Origin: Microcaldota archaeon
Lineage (GTDB): Archaea; Micrarchaeota; Micrarchaeia; Micrarchaeales; CABMGC01
Direction of reading: 5' to 3'
Assembly: GCA_021851985.1 (NCBI GenBank)
Contig: JAJZOS010000033.1
Coordinates: 1 to 8,427 of the forward strand
DNA: 8,427 bases
Shown here: positions 1,852 to 8,427 of the stretch, piece after piece
Layout of the letters: every line of letters begins with the position of its first letter
Position numbering within the stretch: the first letter of the stretch is position 1
The notes under the pieces: model-generated
Told to the model about the DNA's origin: nothing
What the model saw: the letters and a program-made list of their open reading frames with translations, nothing else
Database searches by the model: none
Made by a program: the position numbers and the translations under genes

Positions 1852-2525
1852 ATGGCGGATTTAGTAAAATCTTATATGTAAAGGCCACATCGCTAGACGA
1901 CATATCCAGGTATGTATGCAATTTTGACTATACAAGCTCTCCATTGCTCCTGATAAAATACGGGAATACGTTGAGGATGATGGCATTTGGAGAAAACATC
2001 GGAGATACAAGCATTGCATATTACATCAACTTAAGCAGGCATGAAAGGATGATAGAGTATACATATCCTTCAGCTTATGGGCAGTTTGAAAATGCGCATT
2101 TTGTGGACAAGCCAGACCATCACGGGCATTACATAAATATAATGAATATTGAGCACGCAGACTTCAAGGAAGTGGATAGCGTAAAGCGAAAGGACATCAT
2201 CATGATTTTGGCTTCGACGGTTGAGGACATTGTTGCAGCGTCTGTTAAAAAAGGTGTGAAAAACGAATCGCTTCCCGCCCTTTACGGATTTGATTATAAA
2301 GGAAGGGAAATACTCTGCGGATTTGATATGGTAGATGAGATATCTGATTTAAAAAGCGCCCTGTATTATTGCATTGTTAAGGATAAGCCGCACGGAAACT
2401 TCGCAAGGTATAAATATAGCGATGATAAAGTTGATTTTACAGAACATATTGGGGAGCATTCATATATGTATGCCAAGATAATAAATCTCGCTGAACCTTT
2501 TCCGTTTTTTAAAATGCCCGAGTAG
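1852..2525 (+). CDS. Unknown cytosolic protein, about 224 aa, with an apparent 5' frameshift
   Basis: The main body is an open frame ending in TAG at 2523-2525. The only start codon in that frame before clearly protein-like sequence is a TTG at 1944. Translation upstream of that TTG in the same frame (ILYVKATSLDDISRYVCNF) already looks coding, so the TTG is probably not the start. An ATG at 1852, with AAAGGA just upstream, opens one frame over as MADLVK. It joins the body if one base is re-read or was lost at the AAAA run (1866-1869), giving MADLVKILYVKATSLDDIS. This may be a real mutation, a sequencing error or a programmed -1 shift. The product has no signal peptide or membrane helix. It contains a histidine-rich patch (DKPDHHGHY) and a long acidic/hydrophobic C-terminal part. 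I recognise no family. The last four codons overlap the tRNA-Asn gene. Confidence 0.65.
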
Positions 2526-2587
2526 CTCAGTGGTAGAGCGCCTGGCTGTTAACCAGGATGTCGCAGGTTCGATCCCTGCTTCGGGCG
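2516..2587 (+). tRNA. tRNA-Asn (anticodon GTT)
   Basis: Complete cloverleaf without intron. The acceptor is 2516-2522 with 2580-2586 (six Watson-Crick pairs and one G-U). The D stem is GCTC/GAGC (2525-2528/2536-2539). The anticodon stem CCTGG/CCAGG (2541-2545/2553-2557) encloses loop CTGTTAA, with GTT at 2548-2550. The T stem GCAGG/CCTGC (2563-2567/2575-2579) encloses TTCGATC. The discriminator is G2587, as expected for Asn, and CCA is not encoded. The 5' end overlaps the 3' end of the upstream gene, so its promoter must lie within that coding sequence; an A/T-rich GATAATAAATC at 2477-2487 is a candidate. No T-tract follows. The last 11 bases plus 10 flanking bases recur in two repeats further right. 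Confidence 0.97.
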
Positions 2588-2597
2588 ATGCGCTTCA
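2577..2597 (+). repeat. tRNA-Asn 3'-end repeat, proximal copy (att-like)
   Basis: These 21 nt cover the last part of the tRNA T stem, the acceptor 3' strand, the discriminator and 10 nt of flank. They match 5942-5962 at 19 of 21 positions (including 14 identical in a row, GGCGATGCGCTTCA) and 6461-6481 at 18 of 21, all in the same orientation. Reuse of a tRNA 3' end in distal direct repeats is the usual footprint of tRNA-targeted integration. That interpretation is inferred; the matches are seen directly. Confidence 0.6.
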
Positions 2598-2632
2598 GGT
2601 GCAACCCCCGTGCCACAGACTGTCTGGCCCAC

Positions 2633-5600
2633 CTACGTGCACTCGAATCCTCCAAATTTATTGCACGAAATTGATGTAGGGCAGCTTGGTGGGCACGAAT
2701 CGCCGCCAATTATGATCTGATAACATAAATTACATGAGTAATAGCCCGATTGCACGGTAGTTGTTGAAGACGATGTCGTGCTGGTGGAAGAAGTGGATGT
2801 CATCGAAGTAGTGGTGGTCGTAGATGACGATGACATTGTAGTTGTGTTTACCGCACCATATATTTCTATATTTACAAATGTCACCTTTCCTGCGCTTACA
2901 TTCAGGTAATTGGTACTGTTGGTTATGTTGTCGTACGTAGCATCGACCTCGTATGATCCAGGGATTATAATGAATCCTGTGTTGTATTCCCCATTGGACC
3001 CTGTGTACCACCCGCTATAGCTTTGAACACCAGGCGAAAATGCCCGCACCTGCGCTGCATCTGCCGGAGCGCCGTTGAAGAGCACTGTTACATTCAATGC
3101 GCCGTAACCAGAACCACCAGGTATAGTGGTAGTCATGGATGTGGTGGGCGTTACTGTGGTAGTTGTGCTGGCGCTGCCGTTCTTGGATACATGCATTAGC
3201 AGTGGCACAGTCGCATTGTAAACCCCGTTGGCCGTTGACATTGTAGCCGTGATGTGCGCTACATACAGACTACTTACCACGCTATTGCCAAGTGATATGT
3301 GAAGGGCCGTAGTGTCATCAAGCGACTTTGAGTTCACGGCGGAAGGATTAGGCACGAATGCATATGTGGAATTGGCTGGTCTGTCATTCACGTATGCCAA
3401 TGACATATTTGCAGCGTTCGGCGCTAAAGGAATGCACGGTAGCGTCCTGTTTGAAATGAGATACGTTCTGCACAGTCTTACGGTTATGTTGTCTGCGAAA
3501 GACTCTCCCGGAGAAGCGTATTCTGTTGTATTTGAAAGGCTTATGTTCAACTCTGTCCTCAAATAATTGCCGGAATAGGCAACCACTGGCATAAAGTAGG
3601 ATTCCGACAGCATGGGCCATCCCACGCCGATCGTAAAGTTTATTCCGTGTATACCGGGAGTTTTGCCAACCTCCCACAAAAAGTCTGCAGTTCCGTTTGA
3701 TGAGAGGTTTGAATAGCCGTTTACTATGCGCCCAGAAGAGTATCCCTCCATTATGCCCGAAGTGGTGTGCGCATATAGATACCTTGAGGAATTTCCTGCA
3801 GACGCCCCGGTGCTGGCATAGCGCACGGATACGTTAATTGGTATGGTGCCGTTGACAGGCGCAAGTGCATACGGATATGATGACGGCCACGTTATATTGA
3901 ATATATAGGGATCAGTATCGACTAGGAACAACGATGTTGCGCCGTTGACGCATAGTGGATTCGGATCTGCGAAAAGATTGTAACCCGGTTTAGAAACGGC
4001 AACATTGTAGCACCCGCCTGAAAGCTTTCCAGTAACTGCCGTTGCTGTTGCATTTGTGGCCCCCGAAAATACCGCCTTCCCCCCAGGTATCGATATGGAC
4101 ACAGAGACATTTGGTATCCGGTAATAAACTCCGTACTTCGTGCAGTTCGCAGGGTTGTTAGAACATGACCCAAACTGGAACATAGGGATATAATCGCTGT
4201 ATATTGTAACATTGCCGGGACCGCTGGCCGCAGTGGCATTTGTTGTGTATATAGCCCTGGCCTGCGTTGGTCCTATAAGCTGGAATGTTATATCTGATGT
4301 GCTGTATCTTTTGTAGTATTGGTTGCCTGCCAGCTCGGAGTAGACACTCCAGTAGCTGAAGTAGTATGTCTCCGCAGAGGTTTTCACAATTTTGGGCGTA
4401 GAGAGCGACACAGGTTCCAGCACTGGCGAATAGTTAAGCTGCGACTTTGGCGAATATCCTCGCGGAGACGCCACCGACGCGTTCCCGGGTATAGTGGCTG
4501 ACACATTAAGGAGCGCATATATGGTGTAGTTGAATCTCATTCCGCATATTTCGCTGCCGCACGAATACGTAGAAGAGGAGTTTGTTGCGTTGTATACGGT
4601 AAAATTGCCGACAGGGGTTTCGCCAATGGGCGCAGAGAACATATCAACACCTGCGTTGATCAGCAGCGCAGTCTCAGACTCGTTCATAACCCCAGATAAG
4701 CTGGATTGGAACCCACCAGTCGACTCTCCGAACGAGTCCGGTCCATAAACCCACCAAGTGATCGGAAGGCTGGCTGACACAGGGCCAAATGTGCCATCCA
4801 TCGACGGAGGGACAGGACTTCCAGTAAAAGTGACTCCGAAGTAGACGCTTGGTATCTCGCTGTAGGGAAGCTGCGGGTTCAGTCCCGAAGCCGACCATCC
4901 CTCGGCATCTATGCAATCATCTATGCCAAAGAAATCGCAGTCTCCAGTATCATAGCTCCATTGCGGGCGCAAAGGGGGCGCACTTCCTACCTGCAGCATT
5001 GGCATTGCAGCATAATCGCCCACGCACATCGATGAACCACCTCCAGGAGGAGGAGGGGGCGGCATGCATATTGGAGCAAACAGCGGTAATCCAACACCCG
5101 AACTGTTGCCTTCCAATCCAGGAACTATCGAGGTTATCACAGGAGCATAATATATCAGGTATGCAAAGTTATCGTAATAGCTATATGGATATGGAAGTGC
5201 GCTGTCATGTGGACTGAGCTCATAAGTGCCGTCAAGAACCGCATCCATTATCGGGTCGCCAGATGCCTTGCCGCTCTCATTCACGAATCTGGCACTAAAC
5301 TGCTTTGGGGCGTAGACAGGGCTTTTAACAAAAAAACTCAACAGTGCCGAAGAAAGCGAGCTTGCGTTGTACCCTATTAACAGAAACACGGTCTGGCCGC
5401 GCTCCCATACATTATCCTTGCTTATCATTGCGCCTTTTGTGTAATTGAGAGCATTGTCAAGCTCTGTGGTATTGATGGCCTTCAGTGTAAGTTGCGCGTA
5501 TGCATCATTACTGCTGTTTACTACAATTACTATGAAGGTGGAATTCTGGACGTTTGTGAAATTAGATGCATCAGCATACCTGAAATCATATCTCTCCCTT

Positions 5601-5812
5601 GCCAGTGGCGCAAACTGGCCGTTGGCTGCCAAAACACTATGCGGCGCGACCAAGGCGAACGAGGCATTGCCCAGATGGGCAAAAGGATCCAACGCGCTGG
5701 GATTTTCTGCGTGCGTGCCAGGCAATCCCATTGTTAGCAGGAGTACAGCAATTATAGATATTACTACTGCAATAATTAGGATAATGACATAGTTTAGACT
5801 CTTCTTGGCCAT
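2633..5812 (-). CDS. Giant sequon-rich surface glycoprotein with Cys-rich C-terminal module, 1059 aa
   Basis: Residues 1-4 are basic and 8-30 form one strong hydrophobic helix. A possible signal-peptidase site follows (GTHA/EN), so the helix is either a signal peptide or an N-terminal anchor with the rest outside the cell. About forty N-x-S/T sequons are present. A CMPPPPPPGGGSSMC segment at roughly residues 248-262 is a proline hinge framed by two cysteines. Paired cysteines elsewhere (CSNNPANC; GGCYNV with NPLCVNG) suggest disulfides. Near the C-terminus a Thr-rich linker (about 880-900) leads to a carboxypeptidase-regulatory/CNA-B-like beta module (about 902-984, ALNVTVLFNGAPADAAQV to VNIEIYG). 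A second Ser/Thr linker follows (about 987-1020). The tail (1022-1059) has six cysteines, including CNLC and CPPSC. No enzyme motif is seen; likely role is S-layer, appendage or adhesion. The ATG at 5812 sits below a TATA box. The direct repeats at 2577 and 5942 bracket this gene. Confidence 0.9.
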   Translation of the reverse strand: MAKKSLNYVIILIIAVVISIIAVLLLTMGLPGTHAENPSALDPFAHLGNASFALVAPHSVLAANGQFAPLARERYDFRYADASNFTNVQNSTFIVIVVNSSNDAYAQLTLKAINTTELDNALNYTKGAMISKDNVWERGQTVFLLIGYNASSLSSALLSFFVKSPVYAPKQFSARFVNESGKASGDPIMDAVLDGTYELSPHDSALPYPYSYYDNFAYLIYYAPVITSIVPGLEGNSSGVGLPLFAPICMPPPPPPGGGSSMCVGDYAAMPMLQVGSAPPLRPQWSYDTGDCDFFGIDDCIDAEGWSASGLNPQLPYSEIPSVYFGVTFTGSPVPPSMDGTFGPVSASLPITWWVYGPDSFGESTGGFQSSLSGVMNESETALLINAGVDMFSAPIGETPVGNFTVYNATNSSSTYSCGSEICGMRFNYTIYALLNVSATIPGNASVASPRGYSPKSQLNYSPVLEPVSLSTPKIVKTSAETYYFSYWSVYSELAGNQYYKRYSTSDITFQLIGPTQARAIYTTNATAASGPGNVTIYSDYIPMFQFGSCSNNPANCTKYGVYYRIPNVSVSISIPGGKAVFSGATNATATAVTGKLSGGCYNVAVSKPGYNLFADPNPLCVNGATSLFLVDTDPYIFNITWPSSYPYALAPVNGTIPINVSVRYASTGASAGNSSRYLYAHTTSGIMEGYSSGRIVNGYSNLSSNGTADFLWEVGKTPGIHGINFTIGVGWPMLSESYFMPVVAYSGNYLRTELNISLSNTTEYASPGESFADNITVRLCRTYLISNRTLPCIPLAPNAANMSLAYVNDRPANSTYAFVPNPSAVNSKSLDDTTALHISLGNSVVSSLYVAHITATMSTANGVYNATVPLLMHVSKNGSASTTTTVTPTTSMTTTIPGGSGYGALNVTVLFNGAPADAAQVRAFSPGVQSYSGWYTGSNGEYNTGFIIIPGSYEVDATYDNITNSTNYLNVSAGKVTFVNIEIYGAVNTTTMSSSSTTTTTSMTSTSSTSTTSSSTTTVQSGYYSCNLCYQIIIGGDSCPPSCPTSISCNKFGGFECT

Positions 5813-5843
5813 GTTACATCAGAATACTAGAATATGACCGAAA

Positions 5844-5852
5844 TTATTTAAA
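5844..5852 (-). promoter_or_regulatory. TATA box of the surface glycoprotein gene
   Basis: Minus-strand TTTAAATAA lies 32-40 nt upstream of the ATG, in an A/T-rich stretch. It implies a leader of roughly 10 nt. No Shine-Dalgarno sequence is present. Confidence 0.5.
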
Positions 5853-5906
5853 TTGTTATATATTATTCACGCCAATATGATAAGGAGCAAAAATCCGTCT
5901 AAAAAC

Positions 5907-5964
5907 CCTCCTTGCCGGAGATGTGCCCGACGCACATCTTGTGCATCTGGCGATGCGCTTCAAG
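5907..5964. repeat. 58-nt hairpin element, copy A
   Basis: Ungapped repeat with 6426-6483 (46 of 58 identical). It holds a perfect 8-bp stem, AGATGTGC (5919-5926) with GCACATCT (5932-5939), around loop CCGAC. The outer ends CTTG (5911-5914) and CAAG (5961-5964) are also complementary. The right 23 nt match the tRNA-Asn 3' end and flank. Read on the minus strand, it starts 27 nt after the stop of the DUF1801 gene and ends in AAGGAGGGTTTTT. It could therefore also act as a 3' hairpin and terminator for that gene. Confidence 0.7.
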
Positions 5965-5990
5965 AGATTACTTATAGAAAATGTACAGAA

Positions 5991-6398
5991 TCAATATTTA
6001 TCCTTCATTACATTTAAACTTGCTTTCACTAGCTTCTTTACTAATGCAACTGAAGGCCATTTACCTGCCGGAAAACTAACAATAGCTTTAGTTGTAATAC
6101 AACCTGCTAGCTCTTTTTTATGTTCTTGAATCACTGGAGGGCGCAAGTGAAGACGTATATATGGCTTCTTAAAACTAAACCAAGCAAACATTCCATCATA
6201 ATCATACCCCTCGTAGGAATATCCAGGCATTTGGAAGTAATCTGTGCGCTCTGTAGCGCCAGGTGCTGCTTCTCGTATTGCATTTCTAATCTCCTTTAAT
6301 TTGTCTTGTACTTCTTCAGGGCATTTTGCTATGTATTCGTCTACGCTACTGATTTCCGCGGAATTAGCCTTGCCTTTTACTATAACATCACCAAACAC
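5991..6398 (-). CDS. DUF1801 (YdhG-like) domain protein
   Basis: 135-aa single-domain protein of the DUF1801/YdhG family, a small frataxin-like alpha/beta fold reported in bacteria as a possible iron-handling protein; biochemical role is poorly established. The family order is visible: an N-terminal helix SVDEYIAKCPEEVQDKLKEI, the NAIREAAPGATE segment, the FQMPGYSYEG motif (family consensus Y-x-MP-x-Y/F), a WFSFKKPYIRLHL strand pair, the EHKKELAG helix, TTKAIVSFPAGKWP and a final helix. Length is usual for the family. The start is GTG at 6398, because an in-frame TAA is the codon just before it and a TATA box lies about 26 nt upstream, so the mRNA is probably leaderless. It ends in TGA. Hairpin elements lie at both ends. 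Such proteins are best known from bacteria and are often transferred; no partner gene is evident. Confidence 0.88.
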   Translation of the reverse strand: MFGDVIVKGKANSAEISSVDEYIAKCPEEVQDKLKEIRNAIREAAPGATERTDYFQMPGYSYEGYDYDGMFAWFSFKKPYIRLHLRPPVIQEHKKELAGCITTKAIVSFPAGKWPSVALVKKLVKASLNVMKDKY

Positions 6399-6417
6399 TT
6401 ACAAAATGATTATATTT

Positions 6418-6430
6418 ATTTAAATCCTCC
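6418..6430 (-). promoter_or_regulatory. BRE/TATA promoter of the DUF1801 gene, inside the edge of element B
   Basis: On the minus strand GGAGG is followed at once by ATTTAAAT (6425-6418), about 26 nt before the GTG start. The GGAGG is the outer end of hairpin element B, so the repeat appears to supply the BRE half of the promoter. The GGAGG is too far (about 28 nt) from the GTG to be a ribosome binding site. Confidence 0.6.
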
Positions 6431-6483
6431 TTGTCGGAGATGCGCATGTGGCGCATCTTGTGCTTCGAGCGATGGCCTTCAAG
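6426..6483. repeat. 58-nt hairpin element, copy B
   Basis: Second full copy. The 8-bp stem is AGATGCGC (6438-6445) with GCGCATCT (6451-6458), loop ATGTG. Relative to copy A one T-A pair has become C-G, a compensatory change, while the loop sequence differs at four of five positions. The outer ends CCTTG (6429-6433) and CAAGG (6480-6484) pair. The right part (6461-6481) matches the tRNA-Asn 3' end and flank at 18 of 21. On the minus strand it begins 14 nt after the SnoaL-like gene's stop. Confidence 0.7.
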
Positions 6484-6496
6484 GTTTGCCCCTTGC

Positions 6497-6859
6497 TTAG
6501 GACATCGACTTCTGGAAGTATGCAGTGTCAAAGTATATTGCTATAGAAATCAACTTACCTCCTCCGGCTTTCCAGATTTCAGCTACATCAGCAGTAAACT
6601 TGTTTCCTTTTGGCGACATTAAGTCGTAGTTCACTATGGCGCATGCACTGTCACCGTCTATTATCATATTTTTAACCCTCAAGCCCAATACGCCTCTAAA
6701 GAAATTGTTTTTCATATATGCCTCCCTCCCTTTACTCTCTTTAACCCCAGTCCCAGTCAGCAAGAAATCATCAGATAAAAGAGAACCCCAATCTCCCTTC
6801 TTAGGAAGGCGATCGTAGTATTTGTCAAGTAATTCCTTTGTCATATTTGAATCCGCCAT
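6497..6859 (-). CDS. SnoaL/NTF2-like fold protein, 120 aa
   Basis: A compact protein of the SnoaL-like/NTF2 superfamily, a cone-shaped alpha+beta fold used by small isomerases, cyclases and ligand-binding proteins. Visible family order: a first helix MTKELLDKYYDRLPKKGDW, a SLLSDDFLLTG strand, the GREAYMKNNFF helix, then beta strands LRVKNMIIDGDSACAIVNYDL, KFTADVAEIWKAGGGKLISIAIYFD and a closing TAYFQ. Length is normal for the fold. An in-frame TTG lies at 6886, but the ATG at 6859 is preferred: homologues start near this helix, and a T-rich TATA-like box (6890-6895) lies 31-36 nt upstream. Substrate cannot be read from the sequence. It ends in TAA. It sits between element B and the partial element C and is a plausible horizontally acquired gene. 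Confidence 0.82.
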   Translation of the reverse strand: MADSNMTKELLDKYYDRLPKKGDWGSLLSDDFLLTGTGVKESKGREAYMKNNFFRGVLGLRVKNMIIDGDSACAIVNYDLMSPKGNKFTADVAEIWKAGGGKLISIAIYFDTAYFQKSMS

Positions 6860-6889
6860 TCTAACACCTATAGATATTGGCCTCAAAAA

Positions 6890-6903
6890 ATAAAATCCTT
6901 CTT
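6890..6903 (-). promoter_or_regulatory. BRE/TATA-like promoter of the SnoaL-like gene
   Basis: Minus-strand AAGAAGGATTTTAT is the same block that precedes the DUF1801 gene, here formed by the left edge of partial element C. It lies 31-36 nt upstream of the chosen ATG at 6859. Confidence 0.45.
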
Positions 6904-6927
6904 GTCTGAGATGTGTTCGCAGCGATT
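6897..6927. repeat. Partial hairpin element, copy C (hairpin missing)
   Basis: CCTTCTTGTCTGAGATGTG matches the left end of copies A and B (16 of 19 against B). It then passes directly to TTCGCAGCGATTGG, resembling their right end (CTTCGAGCGATGG in B). The right stem arm and loop are absent, as if the hairpin had been deleted. It lies in the short divergent space between the SnoaL-like gene and the plus-strand membrane-protein gene. Confidence 0.5.
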
Positions 6928-6933
6928 GGACAT

Positions 6934-6943
6934 AAACTTAAAT
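6934..6943 (+). promoter_or_regulatory. TATA-like box of the membrane-protein gene
   Basis: AAACTTAAAT lies about 17-26 nt upstream of the ATG at 6960 and 23-32 nt upstream of the ATG at 6966. It overlaps the alternative ATG at 6942, which argues against that more upstream start. Confidence 0.4.
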
Positions 6944-6959
6944 GCTTTGGTTGGTAGAT

Positions 6960-7460
6960 ATGTTTATGAAAAGCAGAATACTCAAACGATATGGTCTGGA
7001 GGCCGCAGCGAAGATATTAATCGTTATTGGTTCGCTTCTTGTTCTTTTTTCTTGGATTATGGGAGCCTATTATTTTGAATCTGCAGGAAAGATTGTGCTC
7101 TTTATAGTACCATTAATATTCACATGCGTTTCTGCGCTGCTCCTGCTGGTAATCAGATACCGCTATACATTATTCGAAAAGTACCCGTATCTTATGAATC
7201 TTCCTTAGTTATTTTATCGCATCGGAGAGCAAAAGGGCACAAATAAACAGAGTGCTGCATTCAGCATGATCTTCACGGTGCATGCGTTGGTATTGGCTTT
7301 TATTGGTTTCTTGAGCCTTATTTTGACAATATCTATAGGCTCTGGAATAAATAGAAGAATGGTTTCTCCACTTCTATACATATACCTGGCAACAGTGGCG
7401 ATACTTGTTGTGGCTGTACTGATGCTGTACCGTAGAATTTACATCAAATTTGCGAAATGA
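6960..7460 (+). pseudogene. Four-helix membrane protein interrupted by an in-frame TAG
   Basis: Two short open frames lie in the same reading frame, separated only by TAG at 7206-7208. The first (6960-7208) has two membrane helices, about residues 13-35 (AAAKILIVIGSLLVLFSWIMGA) and 43-63 (IVLFIVPLIFTCVSALLLLVI), then ends YPYLMNLP. Reading through the TAG gives LFYRIGEQKGTNKQSAAF and then two more helices (VHALVLAFIGFLSLILTI; SPLLYIYLATVAILVVAVLML) and a basic tail, to a TGA at 7458-7460. The linker after the TAG looks coding and has no other stop. If translated separately, the second half could start at ATG 7266 with no clear ribosome binding site. A single base change in one gene is the simplest explanation. 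TAG is used as the ordinary terminal stop by three other genes here, so routine recoding is unlikely. Family not recognised. Confidence 0.62.
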
Positions 7461-7465
7461 CTCTT

Positions 7466-7478
7466 GAGGTATTTAATT
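7466..7478 (+). promoter_or_regulatory. BRE/TATA-like promoter of the second DUF1801 gene
   Basis: GAGGTATTTAATT has the same purine block plus T/A core seen at other genes. It lies 20 nt upstream of the ATG at 7490 and 29 nt upstream of the ATG at 7499, so the spacing favours the latter as a leaderless start. Confidence 0.4.
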
Positions 7479-7489
7479 GAGGCGACTAT

Positions 7490-7912
7490 ATGAAAAACAT
7501 GAGCAGCAGGTCGAATGGGCTAACAAAGGAGGAGATAGAGGCAATGAAAGAGCGAATAACAGAACAAAGAGCAGGCAAGCAAAACGGCGAGGCAGATCTT
7601 TTTGCTAAGATCGATGCCATGCCAGAACCAGACAGGGGCATGGCCAAGAGAGTTCACGCAATCATCAAAGCCGCTGCTCCTGGCTTAACACCAAGAACGT
7701 GGTATGGAATGCCTGCATATTCAAAGAGCGATAGTGTCATATGTTGGTTCCAACCGGCAAGTAAGTTTAAGACGAGATATATTACATTGGGCTTCAGCGA
7801 CAAAGCGCATCTAGATGAAGGTAACATGTGGCCAACAGTATTTGCAATCACTAAGTTGAGTAAAGCAGAGGAGACTAAGATCACATCGTTGGTGAAGAAG
7901 GCAGTAAGCTGA
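7490..7912 (+). CDS. DUF1801 protein of bacterial type, 140 aa
   Basis: Second member of the DUF1801 superfamily in the window, but a different subfamily from the minus-strand one. It has an extra N-terminal charged helix, GLTKEEIEAMKERITEQRA, then DLFAKIDAMPEPDRGMAKRVH, the AAAPGLTPRTWYGMPAY core motif, WFQPASKFKTRYITLGFSD, LDEGNMWPTVFAITKLS and a final helix ending LVKKAVS. From memory this arrangement, including the EAMKER start and the MWPT-FA-T-L block, closely resembles proteins common in actinobacteria and other bacteria, so transfer from bacteria is likely. Function is unproven. Either ATG 7490 (GAGG 7 nt upstream) or ATG 7499 may be the start; 7499 fits the family's N-terminus better. 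The stop TGA is followed by a hairpin and T-tract. Confidence 0.9.
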   Translation: MKNMSSRSNGLTKEEIEAMKERITEQRAGKQNGEADLFAKIDAMPEPDRGMAKRVHAIIKAAAPGLTPRTWYGMPAYSKSDSVICWFQPASKFKTRYITLGFSDKAHLDEGNMWPTVFAITKLSKAEETKITSLVKKAVS

Positions 7913-7928
7913 AAATGTTGTGTATGGA

Positions 7929-7953
7929 CCTCTTGGGACAAGGGAGGTTTTTT
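7929..7953 (+). terminator. Hairpin plus T6 after the DUF1801 gene, overlapping the next promoter
   Basis: CCTCTTG (7929-7935) can pair imperfectly with CAAGGGAGG (7939-7947), and six T residues follow. Placed 16 nt after the DUF1801 stop, it resembles an intrinsic terminator; in archaea the T-tract alone can terminate. The same GGAGG-TTTTTTAAG also fits a BRE/TATA box, with the core at 7948-7955 lying 26-33 nt upstream of the ATG at 7981. The two roles cannot be separated by eye. Confidence 0.45.
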
Positions 7954-7980
7954 AAGTTTATTATGCAACATCAATTAATT

Positions 7981-8421
7981 ATGGCGATCAGGTATTGGGA
8001 GTATGAAGACGCTCCATTTAAAGAAAAGCTTAAGGAACCAAATGTCAAGGAGATTGCCAAAGTGTATTTTGATAATGAGACTAAAGCATACCGTTTTTCA
8101 AAAGCACTCAGTGAAGTTAAAAAGAAGGGAGGTATAAAGCTTAGGGACTGCGGCGAAGAACTGCCGATAGCAACATGGAAAAGGTATCTTGACTTCGGAG
8201 TCATGATTGGTATTCTCAAGCATGAGGATGGAATATACTCATTTACTGATCGTTATTCAAAGCCTTTCAGGAATGTATCCCTTTATATCAAAGCCTGGAT
8301 AGAGTCAAAAAAAGAAGATGATCTTTCACTTCTTTTTGCAAATGCGAGAATTGAAAAACAAACGAAGAGAGGGGGAAGGGTAGCAGCAATGCCATCGAAA
8401 CAGCAGGAGCAGCGGCTTTGA
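7981..8421 (+). CDS. Small basic unknown protein, possible winged-helix fold
   Basis: 146 aa if started at ATG 7981; in-frame ATGs at 7963 and 7915 would extend it, but the TATA-like box at 7948-7955 overlaps or follows them and points to 7981. No signal peptide or membrane helix. The sequence starts MAIRYWEYEDAPFKEKL, followed by a helical stretch (VKEIAKVYFDNETKAYRFSKALSEVKKKG). The segment IATWKRYLDFGVMIGILKHEDGIYSFTDRYSKPF has the helix-then-wing rhythm of a winged helix-turn-helix (recognition helix followed by a beta hairpin), so DNA or RNA binding is possible, but I recognise no named family. The tail is basic and low in complexity (KQTKRGGRVAAMPSKQQEQRL). It ends in TGA six bases before the right edge. 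Confidence 0.68.
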   Translation: MAIRYWEYEDAPFKEKLKEPNVKEIAKVYFDNETKAYRFSKALSEVKKKGGIKLRDCGEELPIATWKRYLDFGVMIGILKHEDGIYSFTDRYSKPFRNVSLYIKAWIESKKEDDLSLLFANARIEKQTKRGGRVAAMPSKQQEQRL

Positions 8422-8427
8422 TGATTG

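Follow-up and report, generated by a model that had tools for sequence, protein, structure and literature searches.

Genes behind tRNA-Asn in a Candidatus Micrarchaeota genome as probable mobile cassettes of an integron-like array

In an 8,427-nucleotide stretch of DNA from a Candidatus Micrarchaeota lineage (the window; GenBank assembly GCA_021851985.1, contig JAJZOS010000033.1), three minus-strand genes lie in a row behind a tRNA-Asn gene and are bounded by partial copies of its 3′ end. Judged from comparison with related genomes, these genes are probably (at roughly 0.8) non-autonomous mobile cassettes at tRNA-Asn, inserted by a tyrosine recombinase that acted in trans or has since been lost. 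We use the label IntAsn for the tRNA-Asn-specific tyrosine-recombinase subfamily in question and G000 for the window's own genome in the comparison set.

The 3′ end of the tRNA-Asn (GTT) gene (2515 to 2588, plus strand) would be the integration target, comparable to attI or attB. A repeat search in the window recovered the copies of this end reported in a preliminary description of the DNA: positions 2577 to 2597 recur at 5942 to 5962 (90%, 19/21) and at 6461 to 6481 (86%, 18/21), all in one orientation, which is shared by a longer pair, 5903 to 5964 and 6422 to 6483 (62 nt at 79%). The 21-nt repeat is a portion of a ~80-nt recombination site whose core is identical to the tRNA-Asn 3′ end. Full sites occupy 5903 to 5985 (site 2; left arm from 5903, core ATCTGGCG at 5945 to 5952, right arm) and 6422 to 6504 (site 3; core TTCGAGCG at 6464 to 6471), both on the plus strand. 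The degenerate fourth copy of the preliminary description exists as well, although the positions given for it, 6914 to 6927, mark the right end of the matched segment, 6893 to 6924 (plus strand), where a profile built from relatives scored 17.6 bits over the left part of the site only.

The shared core in the tRNA gene is TGC^TTCGGGCG (2577 to 2587, plus strand), with the putative exchange point at 2579/2580, good to about six bases. Bounded in this way, the units are cassette 1 (2580 to 5944), cassette 2 (5945 to 6463), and cassette 3 (6464 to 6917), and their genes lie on the minus strand. The right arm of cassette 1, ATGCGCTTCAGG...CCCCCGTGCCACA (2588 to 2620, plus strand), was not found behind the empty tRNA-Asn genes of relatives; the cassette further holds a gene for a probably exported protein of 1,059 amino acids (2633 to 5812) and the left arm of the next site. 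Cassette 2 carries a DUF1801 gene (5991 to 6398) with a TATA-like sequence at the gene's outer end, and cassette 3 carries a SnoaL-like gene (6497 to 6886). Of the two assignments to bacterial-type families, DUF1801 stood above the Pfam cut-off (32.0 versus 27.2 bits), and SnoaL_2 fell slightly below it (24.8 versus 27.0 bits).

Units of this kind recur singly in other genomes. Taking neighboring sites 150 to 6,000 bp apart as unit borders (nhmmer, E ≤ 1e-3, majority strand only), we defined 90 units in 45 loci, with a median size of 1,320 bp; 49 contained one open reading frame (ORF) of ≥60 amino acids and 5 contained none. The largest ORF lay on the minus strand in 48 units and on the plus strand in 37. 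Fifty-six of the 90 units, in 15 groups, had a homologue in another genome. After same-genome pairs were dropped, there were 90 homologous unit pairs between genomes, 37 of them across the two families, and neighbors differed in 81/90 unit comparisons with both sides known. The highest nucleotide identity was 98.7% overall and 97.0% between families; one pair, G006 C9 and G074 C25, was 100% identical and may be a single sequence binned twice. Background identity, taken from the 1.7 kb in front of tRNA-Asn, was measurable for 29 of the 90 pairs, and unit identity exceeded it in all 29 (medians, 83% versus 57%); pairs were picked by blastn-detectable similarity, and these values therefore prove near-identical units in diverged genomes and are not an average. 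A unit shared by G095 and G096 reached 98.3% against a background of 62.5%, and cassette 1 of the window reached 95.8% in G095, where it is not tRNA adjacent, against 60.8%. Further homologues of cassette 1 were found in G003 (93.2%) and G094 (84.6%), and blocks homologous to cassette 3 were found in G038, from the other family (6415 to 6915, 87.7%), and in G021 (6426 to 6895, 80.9%). In G095, tRNA-Asn is joined directly to a unit that in G096 sits behind three other units, and the join falls at the site, which is the kind of empty-site junction that the preliminary description had called for. Its phrase "gene-cassette-like array" is strongly supported by units that recur singly, in different genomes and neighborhoods, with borders inside the repeat.

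The point of exchange was located with homologous pairs (≥80% identity) that have different neighbors, by scoring identity above that of unrelated units with a bootstrap over groups. On the near side (33 pairs, 11 groups, tRNA-adjacent pairs excluded), excess identity began to the right of the core at +2 (+0.074, 0.016 to 0.138). On the far side (73 pairs, 14 groups), it extended up to −4 (+0.100, 0.039 to 0.152), with none from −3 on. Because the excess is bounded at −4 and +2, exchange appears to fall within about six bases of TGC^TTCGGGCG, the center of a palindrome. With tRNA ends fixed on GGGCG, the first three bases of the site core matched the tRNA-Asn of their own contig in 32/56 cases versus 22.4 in label shuffles (p = 0.0014, a value that ignores kinship), and the rare tRNA forms AGC and TGC were matched in 4/7 sites of their own arrays and in 0/49 others. 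Such matching is consistent with replacement of the tRNA end at each insertion.

The site consensus reads CTTGTCGGAGATGTGC-CTGAC-GCGCATC-TTGTGC-TTCGGGCG-ATGCGCTTCAGG and onward. CCTGAC GCRCATC and GATGCGC TTCARG form inverted halves around TTGTGCTTCGGGC, matching at 10 to 12 of 13 positions by consensus, and together make an imperfect palindrome of 39 nt with TGC^TTCGGGCG at its center. In this register 77.5% of cells pair, versus 29 to 38% when it is shifted by 1 to 3 columns. Covariation of the palindrome pairs was not above shuffles, and a palindrome that lacks covariation fits a double-stranded protein site. A further 7-bp hairpin, GATGYGC-GCRCATC, is paired in 95% of cells, and covariation looked for in it did not exceed shuffles; both single strands of the site fold well, likewise with no covariation of pairs above shuffles. 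The sequence common to tRNA-Asn and the site is TGC[T/A]TCGGGCG only. Past GGGCG, cassette-free tRNA-Asn genes continue into sequence that is unrelated between genomes, as the preliminary description had anticipated for empty sites, and occupied genes mostly continue into ATGCGCTTCAGG or similar; the right arm therefore arrives with the cassette. Longer tRNA-Asn 3′ fragments were seen in or near arrays at G006:C43:5368-5430, G021:C7:71438-71505, G032:C15:15528-15581, and G040:C3:6238-6293, and are perhaps traces of more integration events at tRNA-Asn.

The site is widespread in one order. A DNA search with window positions 5890 to 5975 gave matches with E below 1e-6 in 24/60 genomes, the window's own included, often several per contig, and the best match outside that genome had an E value of 5e-22; recurrence at this level excludes chance likeness. 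With a covariance model (E ≤ 1e-3), sites were detected in 61/164 genomes of the order and in 21/51 of its good-quality genomes. Phylum-wide, 60/301 genomes matched at E ≤ 1e-4, and all 60 belong to the window's order; these wide searches (order, phylum) used strict filters, and weak matches were lost. A scan of a public genome collection yielded 35 stretches, labeled Candidatus Micrarchaeota (31), Marsarchaeota (3), and "bacterium" (1); the "bacterium" contig and one of the Marsarchaeota contigs correspond to G074 C32 (window's family) and G001 C11 (window's genus), respectively. No exact match to the site pattern was found in IMG/VR.

We fetched 57 loci with at least one full site, 113 full sites in total; these were chosen by site or tRNA matches and are not a random sample. 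Sites on one contig shared one orientation, with no strand conflict among the 29 multi-site loci. tRNA-Asn was present in 37/57 loci, and every site in these lay downstream on the tRNA-Asn strand, so that the scatter over many intergenic sites unrelated to tRNA that the preliminary description had named as a possible refutation was not seen. In the remaining 20, sites were mostly near the contig end where the tRNA is expected. The genomes, with assemblies of 0.4 to 1.3 Mb in this order, are mostly fragmentary metagenome-assembled genomes, in which contigs often end at or near sites and array ends are uncertain.

A candidate enzyme lies behind the same tRNA gene. In G009, the first gene behind tRNA-Asn encodes a tyrosine recombinase (PF00589) with a C-terminal zinc ribbon, and a search for relatives across 164 genomes identified six close IntAsn members (G009, G084, G097, G146, G085, and G065) at 75 to 100% identity to the G009 query, with G084, G097, G146, and G085 at 79 to 80%. 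All six genes start 66 to 67 nt behind tRNA-Asn, with the cassette right arm present. The unit ends in a full site in the three cases where the far end is known (G097, G065, and G009; the other three contigs end first), and before each of these far-end sites stands a conserved palindromic block, AT rich and ~140 nt long, which is least pronounced in G009. Residues R170, K196, H266, R269, W291, and Y301 are invariant in six aligned proteins, four of them IntAsn, and we take R, K, HxxR, W, and Y to be the catalytic motif of tyrosine recombinases. N-terminal IntAsn remnants (63 to 70%) were found behind tRNA-Asn in G006 and G032 and, behind another cassette, in the second unit of G078. The window's genome gave no PF00589 or IntAsn match in a search that did not include other recombinase classes (serine, HUH, Cas1). 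PF00589 was absent from six site-bearing genomes, all incomplete: G000, G010, G033, G037, G053, and G057. Both this absence and the six relatives with a recombinase behind tRNA-Asn agree with the earlier suggestion of a mover that works in trans or no longer exists.

The solved structures nearest IntAsn are XerA and XerD, and IntAsn scored under the cut-off of each of the XerA, XerD, and integron-integrase models. For three IntAsn proteins, the integron-integrase model TIGR02249 gave 39.2 to 39.6 bits versus a cut-off of 265 and NF011946 gave 25 to 34 bits versus 435, which places them outside the IntI subfamily. Among the matches listed in a search of 5.8 billion proteins there were 30 relatives, the close ones at 79 to 100% and the next at 46 to 59%; some of the latter are named XerD/ribosomal protein L40E. 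In IMG/VR, no IntAsn relative was confirmed by tblastn and no virus carrier was found. In the genome set, the next IntAsn relatives (46% or less) lie mostly behind other tRNAs. In 17 (16 distinct) of the 25 given loci of such related recombinases, no more than 200 nt separated the gene from a tRNA, and downstream sequence of 12 kb or more was available for seven, 1 to 7 kb for the rest. We looked downstream for copies of a 21-nt query made of the terminal 11 nt of the tRNA and the next 10 nt of flank, allowing up to 4 mismatches. Copies were present in 28/37 tRNA-Asn loci (chosen for sites), none of them on the reverse strand, and in 0/16 distinct related-recombinase loci (15 at other tRNAs, one at tRNA-Asn).

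Two other PF00589 genes, both on site-bearing contigs, were considered as movers and rejected. That of G051 C24 sits behind a tRNA-Lys, and that of G008 is part of a separate SSV-type integrative element in the same tRNA-Asn. The latter element (G008 C6, 6040 to 15121, ~9 kb) has an integrase ORF that starts inside the tRNA, encodes a cytosine methylase and an Eco47II-type enzyme, and carries the cassette right arm at its far end. We also observed a family of ~400-amino-acid tyrosine recombinases, many of them directly behind one tRNA (Gly, Glu, Val, His, Thr, Ala, Asp, or Pro), which makes them well suited to studies of how a tRNA target is chosen.

Cassette cargo was surveyed with 49 representative proteins (46 taken one per unit group and three added by hand; ORFs were selected by length alone). 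The first 25 of 59 Pfam families included AbiEii toxins (3), acetyltransferases (2), AAA_14/DUF4143 (2), RibD_C (2), AHSA1 (2), SnoaL_2 (2), P-type ATPase, transporters, and DUF488, and PADLOC identified AbiEii (3) and PDC-S01 (2) among the cassette proteins. The ~140-nt block lay 5 to 9 nt from a site in 22/23 matches, ten of the 23 being in the block's own model (example: locus L285, 17446 to 17588). One copy scanned against Rfam matched no family above the cut-off. The block may serve as an origin or as an accessory site for a recombinase.

From these comparisons we propose that each cassette comprises a single ~80-nt recombination site and, in most cases, one gene, which has a promoter-like sequence of its own. 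IntAsn would act on a circular cassette and recombine the cassette site with the tRNA-Asn 3′ end, with exchange at or near TGC^TTCGGGCG in the center of the 39-nt imperfect palindrome. Because each cassette would carry in a copy of the tRNA end, every insertion would rebuild the tRNA and move older cassettes outward. IntAsn itself lies in a larger unit that has this site at its borders. Most arrays, the window's too, have no IntAsn, and their cassettes would depend for movement on IntAsn provided in trans. Sequence comparison shows the site and its spread in one order, the exchange and the borders of units, and the position of IntAsn behind tRNA-Asn, and from there we infer the catalytic role of IntAsn, the circular intermediate, and the supply in trans.

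Several observations weigh against this proposal. On the near side of the exchange point, excess identity left of the core (−20 to −4) was small but not nil (+0.045, −0.015 to +0.098), and the kinship ignored in the core-matching test also counts here. tRNA-Asn lacks the palindrome's left half. At least five loci (G039 C1, G005 C29, G023 C6, G047 C20, and G001 C11) contain no tRNA-Asn although at least 7 kb is available on the side where it would lie, and two to six ORFs were counted in 36/90 units. Only 3/6 genomes (G009, G084, and G097) have a full-length IntAsn next to the tRNA: the G146 gene is cut by the contig end, that of G085 has one TAA and meets a contig end, and that of G065 has one TAG and is 75% identical over just 257 residues (55% overall). 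Given this count, most arrays may be relics. Sites were found in 4/6 IntAsn genomes, with none in G146 and G085, where the contig ends in the gene. In G124 (C16, 96 to 5709), a different recombinase (37% to IntAsn) with a noncassette flank lies behind tRNA-Asn, and a full cassette site follows about 4 to 5 kb past it.

The arrays might instead be plain accretion scars, left by tRNA-targeting integrative elements that inserted serially and decayed to single genes, so that the units are remnants rather than mobile cassettes. The type I restriction genes held over ~11 kb by the IntAsn unit of G009, the IntAsn remnants in G006, G032, and G078, and the resemblance of units with the 140-nt end block to trimmed versions of the IntAsn element all suit this account. 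It would nevertheless need single-unit movement after trimming, since complete small units with both ends intact occur at 95 to 98% identity in different neighborhoods and genera. We consider it rather unlikely; it grades into the mobile-cassette explanation and differs from it on whether the small units still move. Homologous recombination between the ~60- to 80-nt repeats could also shuffle genes with no recombinase at all. The sites are long and alike, six incomplete site-bearing genomes have no PF00589 match, and the slight near-side excess left of the core would suit a little of it. Yet such exchange is expected anywhere in the repeat and not only at a bounded core, and tRNA and site have merely 11 nt in common, which makes this route highly improbable.

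A regulatory or structured-RNA element, copied for its function before unrelated genes and only incidentally like a tRNA, would account for the TATA-like sequence at its edge, the well-paired 7-bp hairpin, and the strong single-strand folds. The largest unit ORFs lie on both strands, however, units recur whole, no covariation rises above shuffles, and the sole Rfam family above the cut-off in the window is tRNA; we give this account hardly any credence. Still more remote is a true integron or CALIN (cluster of attC sites lacking an integron integrase) of the IntI/attC type. Archaeal integrons exist (PMC9668308), and the one-orientation sites and mostly single genes resemble them; the target here is a tRNA gene, and IntAsn stays at 39 bits against the integron-integrase cut-off of 265. 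The exchange also differs. In attC sites it takes place at G^TT of GTTRRRY, and the −4 to +2 bracket around TGC^TTCGGGCG places it here at TGC^TTC.

The arrays thus are integron-like in layout and behavior and, by the tests run, are not integrons; enzyme, site, and target differ. Like integrons and CALINs, including archaeal integrons (PMC9668308, whose main text gave no match for Micrarchaeota or tRNA), they line up units of mostly one gene whose repeated sites all point the same way, involve a tyrosine recombinase, insert at a fixed point, carry varied cargo, and often lack an integrase. Unlike in integrons, IntAsn is XerA/XerD-like and lies inside the first unit, there is no attI beside an intI gene, the fixed insertion point is the tRNA-Asn 3′ end, the site is a tRNA-derived palindrome, genes lie on either strand, and units carry promoter-like sequence. 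Integron cassettes are mostly devoid of promoter-like sequence.

In having the catalytic residues, an integrase gene at the tRNA (6/6), and a copy of the tRNA end at the far end (3/3), IntAsn units resemble archaeal tRNA-targeting tyrosine integrase elements. In the SSV type, the integrase gene is split by integration; IntAsn is instead intact beside the tRNA in G009, G084, and G097. Insertion at the tRNA 3′ end, a rebuilt tRNA, and an adjacent integrase gene are shared with the systems reviewed in PMC8371274, whose main text gave no match for Micrarchaeota, DPANN, or cassette. Unlike those systems, integrase-less units, most often of one gene, form arrays here. The Dehalococcoides ssrA islands (PMC3146451) likewise stand in tandem behind one RNA gene, are bounded by copies of its 3′ end, and occur both with and without an integration module; they rely on serine recombinases, have 20-bp repeats that contain a 15-bp motif, and include islands with a six-gene integration module, as against a tyrosine recombinase and a ~80-nt site in the Micrarchaeota arrays. 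Cis-mobilizable elements and their accretion (same source) share attachment sites, the lack of a recombinase, and stacking at one RNA gene. The minimal unit of the present arrays differs from them in being one gene, spread across two families. Cis-mobilizable elements are tied to conjugative or mobilizable elements.

Some features of the window concern its assembly and surroundings. In G000, contig C24 breaks off at window position 6447, within the second long repeat; a different contig, C9, matches the window from 6416 to 8413. We initially suspected that two organisms had been joined at the repeat, which is disfavored by a 2.5-kb stretch of C9 past the array whose best match is the window's own genus; the window's join therefore looks correct, and doubt falls on the opposite end of C9, where a second tRNA-Asn lies. 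Past the repeat (4508 to 5276 of locus L007), C9 holds another cassette and this tRNA-Asn. The tRNA sequence and 10 nt of 5′ flank equal those of G051, from the other family, and the C9 body fits the window's genus; the far end of the contig may be chimeric or may represent a variant within the population. The last 24 nt of the window (8404 to 8427) are an exact inverted copy of 7659 to 7682, probably an assembly fold-back. A second DUF1801 gene (7490 to 7912, plus strand) lies just outside the array.

IntI integrons are, to our knowledge, the main setting in which exchange of single-gene cassettes has been described, and the part of the open-access literature available to us, with most subscription papers and bioRxiv outside its scope, held no account of such arrays in Micrarchaeota. 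We lean, with some reserve, toward viewing them as an independently evolved archaeal integron, in which tRNA-Asn-specific XerA-like recombinases and a tRNA-derived site would let an order of small-genome Micrarchaeota draw single genes from a common pool that spans genera and families. Part of this accessory gene pool is probably missed in assemblies, because contigs end at sites in places (e.g., G000 C24). The arrays offer a defined site and a defined enzyme, and the site is a marker for the accessory genes of uncultured archaea. They bear on how archaea with 0.4- to 1.3-Mb assemblies obtain new genes; there, a recombinase of another lineage, together with a tRNA, appears to fill the role of the integron.

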